Positions 17,132-21,232 of a stretch of DNA of 64,000 nt are shown here, in pieces; positions within the stretch are counted from its first letter, which is position 1, and each line of letters opens with the position of its first letter. Source of the DNA: Saccharopolyspora gregorii (GTDB taxonomy: Bacteria; Actinomycetota; Actinomycetes; Mycobacteriales; Pseudonocardiaceae). A program made the translations under genes and the position numbers. Location of the stretch: the NCBI RefSeq assembly GCF_024734405.1, contig NZ_CP059556.1:3720001-3784000 (forward strand), given 5' to 3'. The notes under the pieces are model-generated. The model worked only from the letters and a program-made list of their open reading frames with translations, made no database searches and was not told the origin of the DNA.

Positions 17132-17895
17132 ATGGCGATCTTCGAAGTGCGGTCGGTGCACAAGTCGTTCGGTGCGAACGAAGTGCTCTCCGGCATCGAC
17201 CTGGACGTGGCCGCGGGCGAGTTCGTCTGCCTGCTCGGGCCGAGCGGTTGCGGGAAGAGCACCCTGCTGGAGGTGCTCGCCGGGTTGCAGGAGCCGAGCT
17301 CCGGCGAGGTGCGCTTCCGCGGTGAACCGCTCACCGGGCCGCGGGAGGGCATCGGGGTGGTGTTCCAGGACGCGTCGCTGTACCCGTGGCGCACGGTGCT
17401 GGCGAACGTGGAGCTGGGGCTGGAGATCCGCGGGGTGGGCCGGGGCGAACGCCGCGCCGCCGCCCGCGAGCACCTGGACCTGGTGGGGTTGTCCGGCTAC
17501 GAGGACGCCTACCCGCACCACCTCTCCGGCGGCATGCGGCAGCGGGCGGGCATCGCGCGGGCGCTCACCGCGGAACCGGAGGTGCTGCTGATGGACGAAC
17601 CGTTCGGGGCGGTGGACCACCTCACCCGGATCCGGCTCCAGCAGGACCTGCTGCGCATCCGCGCGCGGACACGGGGGGGACGGTCGTGTTCGTGACGCAC
17701 GACGTCGGGGAGGCGGTGTTCCTCGCCGACCGGGTGCTGCTGCTGGCGGCGGGACCGGGACGGGTCGTGCGCACCTTCGACGTCGACCTGCCGCGGCCGC
17801 GGGAACGCGGTTCGCTGCCGCTGCTGCAGGAGGAGAGCCGCATCTACCGGGCACTGTCCGAATCGGACGGACGGGCCGAGCCGGTCGGTGGCTGA
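17132..17895 (+). pseudogene. ABC importer ATPase (SsuB/TauB-type) interrupted by a frameshift
   Basis: Up to position 17672 this is a normal nitrate/sulfonate/taurine-type ATPase: Walker A GPSGCGKST, Q-loop [11 protein letters not shown], signature LSGGMRQR, Walker [14 protein letters not shown] run of seven G at 17673-17679 then shifts the frame and the first reading ends at 17695. The rest ([23 protein letters not shown], with the switch His) continues in another frame to 17895. One extra G or two fewer would restore a roughly 255-residue protein. The cause may be real decay or a homopolymer sequencing error. No permease gene is present. Confidence 0.85.
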
Positions 17896-17972: not shown

Positions 17973-18338
17973 TCACGCGATCGACCGGGAGTCGTCGTGC
18001 GCCGCGTGCGAGCAGCCGATGATCGCGTCCAACCGGTCCCGGGTCCGCACGAGCTCGTCGACCTGCCGGTCGATGCGGTCCCGCTCGGCGACGAGGCGGT
18101 CCATCATGGCCGGGTCGGCTTCGCCGGTCTCCACGCACGGCAGCAGGCCGAGGATCAGCTTGCTGGACAGCCCGGCGGCGTAGAGCTGCTGGATGAGCCG
18201 CACCCGTTCCACCGCGGCCTCCGAGTAGGTGCGCTGCCCGCTGGCGGTGCGCTCGGCTCGCAGCAGGTGCTGTTCCTCGTAGTAGCGCAGCGCCCGCACG
18301 CTCACCCCGGTCCTGGCGGCCAGTTCCCCGATCCGCAT
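17973..18338 (-). CDS. MerR-family transcriptional regulator
   Basis: A 121-residue protein. MRIGELAARTGVSVRALRYYEEQHLL is the N-terminal winged helix of the MerR family, and the second half is a long coiled-coil dimerisation helix (RLVAERDRIDRQVDELVRTRDRLD). A C-terminal segment, GCSHAAHDD, carries Cys and two His residues that could sense metal or an electrophile, though the spacing matches no metal class I know. The start at 18338 follows GAGGAGGAAG. It is divergent from the ene-reductase, with a dyad at 18399 between them, so it probably activates that gene. Confidence 0.9.
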   Translation of the reverse strand: MRIGELAARTGVSVRALRYYEEQHLLRAERTASGQRTYSEAAVERVRLIQQLYAAGLSSKLILGLLPCVETGEADPAMMDRLVAERDRIDRQVDELVRTRDRLDAIIGCSHAAHDDSRSIA

Positions 18339-18398
18339 CGCGCTTCCTCCTCGTGCCCGCCGGGCAGCGGTGGTAATCCCGGCCACAATCGGTTTCCT

Positions 18399-18468: not shown

Positions 18469-19590
18469 GTGTCCAGCAGCAACACCTCCGACCGCGCGGC
18501 GAAAGCGCTGTCCCGCCCGTTCGAGCTGGGCGGCACGACCGTGCCGAACCGCATCGCGATGGCGCCGATGACGCGCGACCTCTCCCCCGGCGGAGTGCCC
18601 GGCGCGGACGTCGCCGCCTACTACGCGCGCCGCGCCGCCGCCGGCACCGGGCTGATCATCACCGAGGGCACTTACGTGGACCACCCCTCGGCCGGGCTCA
18701 GCGACTCGATCCCGCGCTTCCACGGCGAGGACGCGCTGGCCGGCTGGAAGAACGTCGTCGCCGAGGTGCACCAGGCGGGCGGGAAGATCTTCCCGCAGCT
18801 CTGGCACGTCGGGATGGCCCGCCCCGCAGGCGCCCCGCCGTTCCCGGACGCCCCGCCGATGGGCCCGTCCGGGCTCGACCTCAAGGGCGAGGAAGCCGGG
18901 CACGCGATGACCCGGACCGACCTGGACGCGGTCGTCGAGGCGTTCGCCCAGGCCGCCGCGGACGCCGAACGCGTCGGGTTCGACGGCGTGGAGCTGCACG
19001 GCGCGCACGGCTACCTCATCGACCAGTTCCTGTGGGAGCGCACCAACCGCCGCACCGACGCCTACGGCGGCGACCCGGTGTCCCGGACCCGCTTCGCCAC
19101 CGAGGTCGTGGCCGCCGTGCGCCGGTCGGTCTCCGCCGACTTCCCCGTCGTGTTCCGCACCTCGCAGTGGAAGATGTACGACTACCAGGCGCAGCTGGCC
19201 ACCACGCCGCAGGAGCTGGAGGCCGTGCTCGCGCCGCTCGCGGAGGCCGGGGTGGACGCCTTCCACGCCTCCACGCGGCGGTACTGGCGGCCGGAGTTCG
19301 AGGGCTCCGACCTGAACCTCGCCGGGTGGACCAAGAAGCTCACCGGCAAGCCGTCCATCACGGTCGGCTCGGTGGGGCTGAACCAGGAGTTCACCGGGGC
19401 GTTCACCGGCCAGACCTCCGAGATCACCGACATCGATGCACTGGTGGAACGGCTGGAGCGCGACGAGTTCGACCTGGTCGCGGTGGGCCGCGGACTGCTC
19501 GCGGACCCGCTGTGGAGCGAGAAGGTGCTCTCCGGGCGCCTGGACGAGGTCGCCCCGTTCAGCTCCGAGCTGCTCACCTCGCTGTACTGA
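18469..19590 (+). CDS. Old Yellow Enzyme-family NADH:flavin oxidoreductase (ene-reductase)
   Basis: A 373-residue FMN TIM-barrel protein. VPNRIAMAPMTRDLSPGGVP is the N-terminal FMN-binding segment. GVELHGAHGYLIDQFLWERTNRRTDAYGG is the OYE signature with the substrate-binding HGAH motif. VGRGLLADPLW closes the phosphate site. Such enzymes reduce activated alkenes, quinones or nitro compounds with NAD(P)H. The GTG at 18469 follows GAGGAG. Divergent MerR control suggests induction by an electrophilic compound. A 13-bp hairpin terminates the gene at 19601. Confidence 0.92.
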   Translation: MSSSNTSDRAAKALSRPFELGGTTVPNRIAMAPMTRDLSPGGVPGADVAAYYARRAAAGTGLIITEGTYVDHPSAGLSDSIPRFHGEDALAGWKNVVAEVHQAGGKIFPQLWHVGMARPAGAPPFPDAPPMGPSGLDLKGEEAGHAMTRTDLDAVVEAFAQAAADAERVGFDGVELHGAHGYLIDQFLWERTNRRTDAYGGDPVSRTRFATEVVAAVRRSVSADFPVVFRTSQWKMYDYQAQLATTPQELEAVLAPLAEAGVDAFHASTRRYWRPEFEGSDLNLAGWTKKLTGKPSITVGSVGLNQEFTGAFTGQTSEITDIDALVERLERDEFDLVAVGRGLLADPLWSEKVLSGRLDEVAPFSSELLTSLY

Positions 19591-19600
19591 CCGCACGCGC

Positions 19601-19643
19601 GACGGCTCCCGCCGTTCCGGCGAACCGGAGGGCGGGAGCCGTC
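19601..19643. terminator. 13-bp hairpin with inner stem, between convergent genes
   Basis: GACGGCTCCCGCC at 19601-19613 pairs perfectly with 19631-19643, and an inner TTCCGG/CCGGA stem closes on a CGAA tetraloop. It lies ten bases after the ene-reductase stop and also faces the minus-strand Trp/Gly/His-rich gene ending at 19683. Confidence 0.85.
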
Positions 19644-19682
19644 TCGGCGATGCGTCAGGTCGTGGTCGTCAAGGCCGGGGGC

Positions 19683-19838
19683 TCACTTGCGCCAGCCGCC
19701 CCAGTGGTGGCCCCAGCCCCAACCGTGACCCCAGCCCCAGCCCCAGCCGTGGCCCCAGCCCCAGCCCCAGCCGTGGTGGTGGCGCCGGCCCCAGCCGCCG
19801 GAGCTGTGGACGAAGATGCTCTTCACTTGCATGATCAT
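19683..19838 (-). CDS. Trp/Gly/His-rich 51-residue protein of unknown function
   Basis: The protein starts MIMQVKSIFVHSSGG and then becomes an almost pure repeat of Gly, Trp and His (HGWGWGWGHG units), ending HHWGGWRK. I count eleven Trp and seven His in the last 38 residues and no acidic residue at all. The start has a GGGAAG site six bases upstream (19845-19850). An internal ATG at 19832 is an alternative. The opposite strand reads as Pro-Ala repeats with no start. It has no signal peptide and no modifying enzyme beside it. Candidates are a metal- or heme-binding peptide, a membrane-active peptide or a RiPP precursor. None is shown. Confidence 0.65.
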   Translation of the reverse strand: MIMQVKSIFVHSSGGWGRRHHHGWGWGWGHGWGWGWGHGWGWGHHWGGWRK

Positions 19839-20046
19839 TACCTGCTTCCCACGAACCCGGCAGGCGAAATCAGTTCCGTCCACCGGTGCCTCGGTGCTGC
19901 TGCGGATTCGATGGGAGTCGTTCTTCGCGGCCCCGTACGCGTCGGGTGGTCGACTCGGCGGGCCAGGCCCGGCGCGATTGCCCCCAGGTTAGCCCCGCGC
20001 GGCGCGCCGGGACCACGGGAATTCGGCCCGCACGCGGTGCGTGGCC

Positions 20047-20073
20047 GGGGGCGCCCACCTGCGCGGCGCCCCC
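20047..20073 (-). terminator. 9-bp GC hairpin after the phosphoesterase
   Basis: GGGGGCGCC at 20047-20055 pairs with GGCGCCCCC at 20065-20073 over a nine-base loop, eight bases beyond the minus-strand stop at 20081. Confidence 0.7.
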
Positions 20074-20080
20074 GCGCGGA

Positions 20081-21019
20081 TCACTCGGTGGCGTTCAGGT
20101 CCACGTCCACGGTGAAGTCGTCCTCGCCGTCGAAGTAGTTCGAGTCGTCCTCGGACGGCGAGTAGGTGTCGACGATCATCTTGCCCGCGTCCACGTCGAA
20201 CTGCAGCAGCCGCAGGTAGCCGAGCCCGCCTTCCGGGGCGCTCTGGTAGTCGGCGAGGATCTCCGGCACGGTGCGACCGCCGCCGAGGTCCTTCACGTTG
20301 TGCGTGGCACCGTGGTTGTGCCCGCACAGCACGGCCTTCACGTTGCGGTGCGGCTCGACGATCCGGTCGAAGATCTCCTGGCCCTGCTCGCTGTAGGAGC
20401 CGTCGGTCTCCAGGTACGCGTGCACGCTGATGATCACCGGGGTGTCGGGGTGCGCGGCGAGGACGTCCTCCGCCCAGGCGAAGTCCGCCTCCTGCATGTC
20501 CCAGGTCAGCGACAACATCATGACCTGCTCGCCCGCCACGTCCACGAGGTCGTAGTGCTGGCGGTTGTTCTCGAACGACTCGCCGCGCACCGGGGAGCCG
20601 GCGAACCGGTCGTCACCGAAGTAGTCCGCGTAGAGCCCGTCCACGTCGTGGTTGCCCTCCACGACGCCGTACGGGAACTTCGCGTCGTCCAGCACCTTCA
20701 TGCTGGCGTCGGCGTTCTTCCACTGGTCCTCGTCATCGGAGTCGTCCACGATGTCGCCGGTGTGCGTCGCGTAGCCGATCTTGCGCTCGGCGGCGTTGTC
20801 GACGAGCCACCGGGTCTGCGCGTCGAAGTGCTCGGGGTGGCTCTCCGAGTAGTACTGGGTGTCCGGGATCCAGGCGATCGCGGCGTCGTAGCTGCCCGGG
20901 TCGGGCAGCTCGGCGGCACGCGCACCGGGGCCCGCGAGCGCGCTGGGCGCGGCGATCGCGGTGGCGGCGGTCAGGCCGGTGGCGGCCAGGGCGATCAGCA
21001 GACGGCGGTCGGGCTTCAC
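20081..21019 (-). CDS. Secreted calcineurin-like metallophosphoesterase
   Basis: A 312-residue protein. The first about 35 residues are a signal peptide (KPDRRLL, then an Ala/Leu core ending near SALAGPGARA). PDTQ (Asp53), THTGDIVDD (Asp89), GNHD (122-125), an HAY segment and CGHNHG are the two-metal active-site motifs of the calcineurin-like fold. The very acidic C-terminus (SPSEDDSNYFDGEDDF) would suit calcium or extracellular conditions. The GTG at 21019 follows GAGGAGCC. It is monocistronic, with a terminator at 20047, and diverges from the secreted protease. Confidence 0.88.
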   Translation of the reverse strand: MKPDRRLLIALAATGLTAATAIAAPSALAGPGARAAELPDPGSYDAAIAWIPDTQYYSESHPEHFDAQTRWLVDNAAERKIGYATHTGDIVDDSDDEDQWKNADASMKVLDDAKFPYGVVEGNHDVDGLYADYFGDDRFAGSPVRGESFENNRQHYDLVDVAGEQVMMLSLTWDMQEADFAWAEDVLAAHPDTPVIISVHAYLETDGSYSEQGQEIFDRIVEPHRNVKAVLCGHNHGATHNVKDLGGGRTVPEILADYQSAPEGGLGYLRLLQFDVDAGKMIVDTYSPSEDDSNYFDGEDDFTVDVDLNATE

Positions 21020-21232
21020 TGCGGCTCCTCGGCTCGGCGTACGTCCGGCACATCGTGCCGCCGCCGCGTGGAGCCGGGCCCAAGCCGCGCCGACCCCCTG
21101 GTGAACCGCCCCTGAACACGCCGCGATCACCGGATTTCCCGGTTCTCCCGCGAACGACCGGGCGTCCGGCTGGTACGAAACCGTGACGGGACGACGACGA
21201 GGTGCGGACGAGCGCGGGACACGGTGGGGCCC

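Follow-up and report, generated by a model that had tools for sequence, protein, structure and literature searches.

RiPP precursors that are paired with an ABC exporter are encoded by short genes and combine a conserved N-terminus with a variable C-terminal part. Attenuators of the trp-leader type consist of a short ORF rich in Trp codons followed by a hairpin, and in arrest leaders the decisive residues lie close to the stall site. Among leaderless bacteriocins, aureocin A53 is a highly cationic peptide of 51 residues with five Trp, for which ABC transporter-like machinery has been described (PMC11580447), and peptides of the aureocin A53/lacticin Q type resemble saposins (PMC6072434). WatS1-4 of Methylomonas, small proteins of about 50 aa present in several copies and with a predicted transmembrane domain, are tied to the WatABO RND pump (PMC10355033). 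The locus compared here with these systems is a Gly/Trp/His-rich peptide gene of Saccharopolyspora gregorii, whose genome is a single contig of 6.34 Mb; the window, i.e., the whole stretch of DNA analysed, comprises 64,000 nt.

The ORF as first reported (19683..19838, minus strand) has 51 codons and specifies 11 Trp, 16 Gly and 8 His, with no Asp or Glu. This recount agreed with the composition given in an earlier note on this DNA (11 Trp and seven His in the last 38 residues, no acidic residues). Eleven Trp was the highest count in any stop-free 38-aa stretch across all six reading frames of the window; the remaining five frames peaked at 6–8, and first-order Markov resampling of the window (12 replicates) gave no more than 5–6. 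The peptide most likely starts at the ATG at 19832 and has 49 residues (MQVKSIFVHSSGGWGRRHHHGWG..., MQVKSIFVHS) rather than 51, because a Shine–Dalgarno-like AGCAGG lies 8 nt from this ATG but leaves just 2 nt to the outer one at 19838, which is missing from the syntenic copies in two congeneric genomes, G003 and G005. The coding sequence is therefore placed at 19683..19832 on the minus strand, with the stop TGA at 19683–19685, and is laid out as a head (MQVKSIF), a linker (VHSSGGWGRRHHH), a compositionally extreme Gly/Trp body (the 49 residues include the 11 Trp and 16 Gly) and a basic tail (WRK). The place of the Shine–Dalgarno-like sequence GGGAAGCAGG (19841..19850, minus strand) is conserved in G003 and G005, and DNA alignment revealed a longer upstream block (19841..19887, minus strand), conserved in these two syntenic copies, which is a candidate promoter or 5′ untranslated region. 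Judged by its homologues, more than by its composition, the ORF is a real minus-strand gene. A chance ORF was ruled out by the homologues, the constrained head (pN/pS of 0.37 in class a, to which the window copy belongs) and the upstream block. The claim of a genuine protein was thereby borne out by homologues and head, and the strand opposite proved to be a Pro/Ala-rich part of a long ORF, matching the Pro-Ala reading reported earlier. The ribosome site and N-terminus that had been called normal held up in part: there is a Shine–Dalgarno-like site and a meaningful head, but the start had been set two codons too early.

The peptide gene converges on a gene for an FMN oxidoreductase of the old yellow enzyme (OYE) family (18469..19590, plus strand; Pfam PF00724, E 2.5e-63; cluster c28). 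A MerR-type regulator gene (17973..18386, minus strand; Pfam MerR_1; cluster c27) belongs to the same conserved neighbourhood. A strong inverted repeat read from the sequence between the two convergent genes (19601..19643) is likely a bidirectional terminator. The 85 nt 3′ of the peptide stop had a folding energy of −47.3 kcal/mol (z −5.1), and a scan of 19500–20200 for T-run terminators found none. The OYE cluster occurred near the class a copies in the window, G003 and G005 and near no other member examined (3 of 41 neighbourhoods), so a functional tie between the peptide and this enzyme was rejected. A metallophosphoesterase gene (20081–21037; Pfam Metallophos) lies upstream on the same strand, and no link of it to the peptide family was seen. 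The next same-strand gene is 1296 nt beyond the peptide gene, past the convergent OYE gene, and no ABC exporter gene lies directly 3′ of the window copy. Since a paralogue in the same genome does have an exporter directly downstream, after a gap of 79 nt, the window copy was called an orphan paralogue within a family of putative peptide and exporter cassettes. It shares the conserved upstream block with the syntenic copies. These copies (L150 in G003, L156 in G005) are followed 366–379 nt downstream on the same strand by a three-gene [2Fe-2S]/FAD/molybdopterin set of molybdo-hydroxylase type, which is not present beside the window copy.

Matches with E values up to 1 were obtained in all six genus genomes searched, including the host's own, and five of the six encoded a head with a Gly/Trp body. 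Sister-type copies occupied other genomic places in G001 and G002, and none was found in G004. G005 carried two copies that have contracted to 18 and 30 aa, the shorter of which retained head and tail and had lost the repeats. A head-plus-repeat DNA pattern, which is exact and misses members, matched 56 stretches in genome contigs. Each of the 11 stretches in Saccharopolyspora encoded a Gly/Trp peptide in frame (a contig end truncates one), and none of the other 45, outside this genus, did so. The named relatives were Saccharopolyspora hirsuta, indica, rosea, kobensis, oryzae, sp. NFXS83 and sp. HNM0986; within the order, matches came from 5 of 397 sampled genomes, all of one and the same family.

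Family members share a head of the form M-x(1-2)-[IV]-[KS]-x-[IVTS]-F followed by a short linker and a Gly/Trp body, and MQVKSIF of the window copy fits the narrower form M-x(1-2)-[IV]-[KS]-x-[IV]-F. The head was present in 34 of the 35 Gly/Trp members read (5 of class a, 5 of class b, 10 of class c and 15 of class d), a count that is partly circular because many were found with a pattern containing part of the head; the sole degenerate head (MGKGSSVF) belonged to the exporter-linked paralogue in the host's own genome. A less biased count came from 16 loci fetched by exporter similarity (L176, L215–L228 and L265), where 11 peptides carried the head if Thr, Ala or Arg is accepted as its fourth residue (L218, L223 and L265), and five did not (L222, L224, L226, L227 and L228). 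In four groups, pN/pS was 0.28–0.40 for the heads and 0.46–0.78 for the whole peptides, values derived from pooled, non-independent pairs in which the repeat bodies align poorly. By this measure the head is under constraint. The earlier note had named a non-conserved head as an outcome that would speak against its reading; the head is kept in most relatives, and that outcome did not occur. Lengths ranged from 18 to 62 residues. A stand-alone class d copy in G114 (L162) drops out of the Gly/Trp frame some 22 residues in and appears broken or decayed. AlphaFold2 run on the single sequence of the window peptide gave a mean pLDDT of 60.9 and a pTM of 0.15, with no secondary structure reported.

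No described family was recognised, as had been claimed before: the window peptide had no match in NCBIfam up to E 10, none in PHROGs or among PDB sequences up to E 1, and in Pfam matched only KRTAP at 13 bits against a cut-off of 21.1. The KRTAP match was taken as a composition effect, as were five Rfam matches, none of which reached the gathering score. Seven exporter-associated peptides of other compositions likewise had no Pfam or NCBIfam match. Searches of the open-access literature returned no description of such peptides. The family is apparently undescribed so far.

The recurrent partner of these peptides emerged from 41 peptide-gene neighbourhoods, in which genes were called with a simple caller of our own and clustered; ten genes were annotated with Pfam and the other clusters were read by eye. 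In 17 of the 41, an ABC exporter gene followed the peptide gene directly on the same strand. The exporter cluster lists 18 loci, the uncounted 18th being an ABC ATPase gene of the window (17132–17695) drawn in by ATPase similarity. The partner exporter has about 620–640 residues with Pfam ABC_membrane and ABC_tran, and its Pfam matches included no peptidase domain. By sequence, its closest solved chains were ABCB-type exporters including MsbA, and MsbA models scored highest in NCBIfam, yet below their own cut-offs. The link to the exporter lies outside the window: in the host's own genome the exporter gene (G000:C1:2318600-2320462) is preceded by the paralogous peptide gene (MGKGSSVFVYVNN...) 79 nt in front on the same strand.

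This pairing was also apparent when the exporter was taken as the starting point. Of 30 exporter matches with at least 60% identity, 29 followed a gene for a small peptide of unusual composition. The remaining one, in G179, begins only 269 nt from a contig end, and no peptide gene was seen there. Three of the 29 peptides (L226–L228) were Asp/Arg-rich and lacked the head. One locus fetched only after the idea had formed (G007:C34) encoded a head with a Gly/Trp body (MKIRAIFRLGRHSRDDDDEGRGWGHWGHGWGWG...) 120 nt before the exporter. Among called exporter genes of at least 60% identity, 31 of 31 had a small upstream ORF with a ribosome-binding site (RBS); 17 of these loci had been chosen for carrying a peptide, and the 14 fetched by exporter search (L215–L228) scored 14 of 14. 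A W+Y+H share of at least 0.20 characterised the ORF upstream of 20 of the 31 exporter genes and of 1 of 694 other genes, and that single gene lies behind a stand-alone family member.

Under a stricter rule on position and RBS, a peptide ORF preceded 15 of 17 exporter-first loci, 21 of 27 distinct second-tier loci (exporters at 43–59% identity, with L192, which lies inside L232, counted once), 6 of 20 other ABC exporters at 34–41% identity and 29 of 198 ordinary genes whose upstream space was clear. Half of the six hits among the other ABC exporters (L245–L247) have one Cys/His-rich peptide in common. The two exporter-first misses (L173 and L174) do have a peptide, with no site meeting the RBS rule, and six second-tier loci had no ORF satisfying this rule. 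A two-residue share of at least 0.34 was found at 14 of 17, 19 of 27, 4 of 20 and 13 of 198 of these loci, respectively; at L215 and L219, the ORF ranked first by the rule is out of frame and overlaps the real peptide. Three of six exporters at 56–59% identity had no such ORF in the scanned stretch, two of them from distinct genomes and the third with a His-rich ORF 295 nt away. Taken together, these gene-order counts show a recurrent pairing of the peptide gene with the exporter gene.

The peptide body was more changeable than the exporter. In genus g3, exporters 66–68% identical to ours were preceded mostly by Tyr/Gly-rich peptides (e.g., MRVSDVFTPGATDSPDDGYYYDGKPGHKNYYEDYY...), with the head mostly kept. 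A quickly computed exporter tree with 66 rows placed the seven Tyr rows in a group (SH-aLRT 93) inside a branch that also holds two Trp rows (100). In that part of the tree, all of the rows with Trp, Tyr or Asp/Arg/Trp peptides, 29 in total, grouped together (100). A distant Trp-bearing row (L209) fell elsewhere on a long branch of unsure place. As far as this tree can be relied on, a switch of the body from Trp to Tyr took place inside a single clade of exporters. Second, different aromatic peptide genes were observed 0.3–0.5 kb further upstream of one exporter in L221 and L225 (both g3) and L209.

Many more distant exporters were preceded by His-, Arg-, Lys/Pro/Ala- or Pro-rich peptides. Out-of-frame Arg-rich ORFs are common in G+C-rich DNA, so the Arg-rich upstream peptides are the weakest of these cases. 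The host's own second exporter of the clade (G000:C1:272956-274638, L214; 45% identity) has a Pro/Arg/His-rich 30-aa peptide (MGFPIPVPGKRPHFPRPEQP...) in front. In the large genomes of genus g124 (L206, L207, L208 and L212), Lys/Pro/Ala-rich peptides starting MSF[HD]K[IV]APVKK lie upstream of an exporter homologue, two of them in tandem in L208. Three g43 genomes (L245, L246 and L247) encode a Cys/His-rich peptide of 46–47 aa (MGFFLLDGCAPP...) upstream of an ABC exporter of 38–39% identity, which suggests that the pairing extends further and perhaps involves a metal-binding payload.

Stand-alone copies also tracked the exporter across genomes. Among 22 genomes of g26, pattern-detected peptide genes occurred in 14 and an exporter of at least 58% identity in the same 14 (Fisher 3e-6, kinship ignored); stand-alone copies occurred in 12 of the 14 genomes with the exporter and in none of the eight without it (Fisher 1.4e-4, kinship ignored). 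These matches were sorted by eye, and all 18 matches in the eight negative genomes were translated; the stand-alone copy of G185 is known from the matched string only, and in G261 the exporter-side peptide is cut at a contig end and only paralogues 58–60% identical to the exporter were found. Of 14 stand-alone copies tested, seven were followed first by an opposite-strand gene and seven, including the syntenic copies in G003 and G005 (366 and 379 nt), by a same-strand gene 243–1089 nt downstream, so a monocistronic status is clear for the former seven only. Compared with shuffled sequences, the 85 nt after the stop formed a more stable fold (z of at most −2) in 20 of the 23 exporter-linked copies tested and in 3 of the 14 stand-alone ones. 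We read this hairpin as a putative intercistronic attenuator yielding more peptide than exporter; it fits a regulatory leader equally.

Any explanation has to start from what the genome comparisons show, i.e., a gene family with a constrained head, its pairing with an exporter, the switching of the body and the existence of stand-alone copies. The best explanation, which we put at close to an even chance of being right, is that the product of the window gene is a disordered peptide with little or no modification, carried as cargo by a dedicated ABCB/MsbA-type exporter. The head, M-x-[IV]-[KS]-x-[IV]-F, would be read as a recognition tag by the exporter or its targeting step, and the Gly/aromatic body would be a payload free in length and composition that leaves the cell through the exporter. 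The window copy would be an orphan cargo served in trans by the exporter at G000:C1:2318600-2320462, which stands beside the paralogous peptide. Our preferred guess for the payload outside the cell is a self-associating surface material, with antagonism as the alternative. Counting against the cargo reading are the degenerate head of the host's own exporter-linked paralogue, the headless peptides among the exporter-first loci and the exporters without a peptide ORF. Adjacency of the two genes, head constraint and the restriction of g26 stand-alone copies to exporter-bearing genomes (12 of 14 with, 0 of 8 without) would also be expected if the peptide stayed in the cell or membrane, bound the exporter by its head and set its activity or specificity, orphans being extra regulators; the WatS proteins and the WatABO pump offer a precedent (PMC10355033). 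We nevertheless regard such a partner as unlikely, given that a hypervariable body beside a conserved exporter is odd for a fixed binding partner, that two different peptides can precede one exporter, and that no hydrophobic segment was apparent when the sequences were read by eye rather than computed.

The downstream hairpins bear on a further possibility, namely that slow codons (runs of Trp, Arg, Pro or Lys) are sensed during translation, with the hairpin 3′ of the ORF governing expression of the downstream gene, mostly the exporter. The stable folds after exporter-linked rather than stand-alone copies fit such an attenuator or arrest leader, as would the varied body compositions, all of which might plausibly be slow to translate, and the molybdo-hydroxylase-type gene 366–379 nt downstream of the syntenic copies on the same strand. 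However, nothing to control lies downstream of the window copy before the same-strand gene 1296 nt away past the convergent OYE gene, half of the stand-alone copies (7 of 14) are followed first by an opposite-strand gene, and the 16 Gly codons of the window gene are 14 GGC and 2 GGT. The conserved part is also N-terminal, unlike that of arrest leaders, in peptides of 18–62 aa. We therefore consider a leader unlikely. A short leader-like head, a repetitive aromatic core and an ABC exporter partner would likewise suit a RiPP precursor whose Trp/Gly/His body is first cross-linked, or altered in another way, by enzymes from other loci and then exported. This option, raised in the earlier note, now appears improbable, since the recurrent clusters of the 41 neighbourhoods included no recognisable modification enzyme (ten genes annotated with Pfam, the others read), the OYE gene next to the window copy occurs near just three members of the family, and the sole recurrent same-strand partner directly downstream is the ABC exporter. 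The eight His and the lack of acidic residues in the window copy had likewise prompted the suggestion of metal or heme binding, and an intracellular peptide binding metal, heme or nucleic acid would be consistent with them. Ligands would be expected to be kept, whereas the five class a copies have 8, 3, 2, 1 and 0 His, and His is absent from several exporter-linked members (L130, L142 and L163, read by eye). Metal or heme binding is accordingly not supported as a shared function, and we judge an intracellular binding peptide of this kind very improbable.

The cargo reading may extend well beyond Saccharopolyspora, although this wider version is less likely. One ABCB-type clade would then form a widespread actinobacterial system that ships disordered low-complexity peptides by a short head acting as a modular export tag, with payloads (Trp/Gly, Tyr/Gly, His, Arg, Lys/Pro/Ala and Cys/His) swapped between lineages and orphan cargo genes scattered over genomes. 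If true, a specific clade of exporters would have an actinobacterial peptide family as its partner, a defined cargo would be available for exporters whose best-scoring models are of MsbA type, the head would represent a short, genetically portable export tag, and the bodies would supply natural materials of Gly/Trp and Gly/Tyr composition. Such peptides, if this reading is right, are likely missed by annotation because they are short and of low complexity, and no library model was found for them. The pairing also makes the function of the exporter testable through a single deletion in laboratory strains.

Compared with the systems outlined above, the family resembles trp leaders in its short ORF rich in Trp codons and, in exporter-linked copies, the hairpin that follows; in contrast, the window copy has no downstream gene to regulate, its 11 Trp are spread over repeats and its N-terminus is conserved. 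With RiPP systems it shares a short gene before an ABC exporter, a conserved N-terminus and a variable C-terminal part, but no recurrent modification enzyme was recognised here, nor an exporter peptidase domain among the Pfam matches. WatS proteins are similar in being peptides of about 50 aa tied to a pump and present in several copies, whereas the peptides considered here are of low complexity, variable in composition and linked to an ABC exporter. Leaderless bacteriocins are the nearest kind in logic, being small, leaderless, Trp-containing peptides with ABC transporter-like machinery. The present peptides differ from them in their low-complexity Gly/Trp body (11 Trp in the window copy), conserved head, variable length, switching body and lack of a confident fold. 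The ABC transporter of a leaderless bacteriocin cluster has no counterpart directly beside the window copy but does have one beside the paralogue in the same genome.
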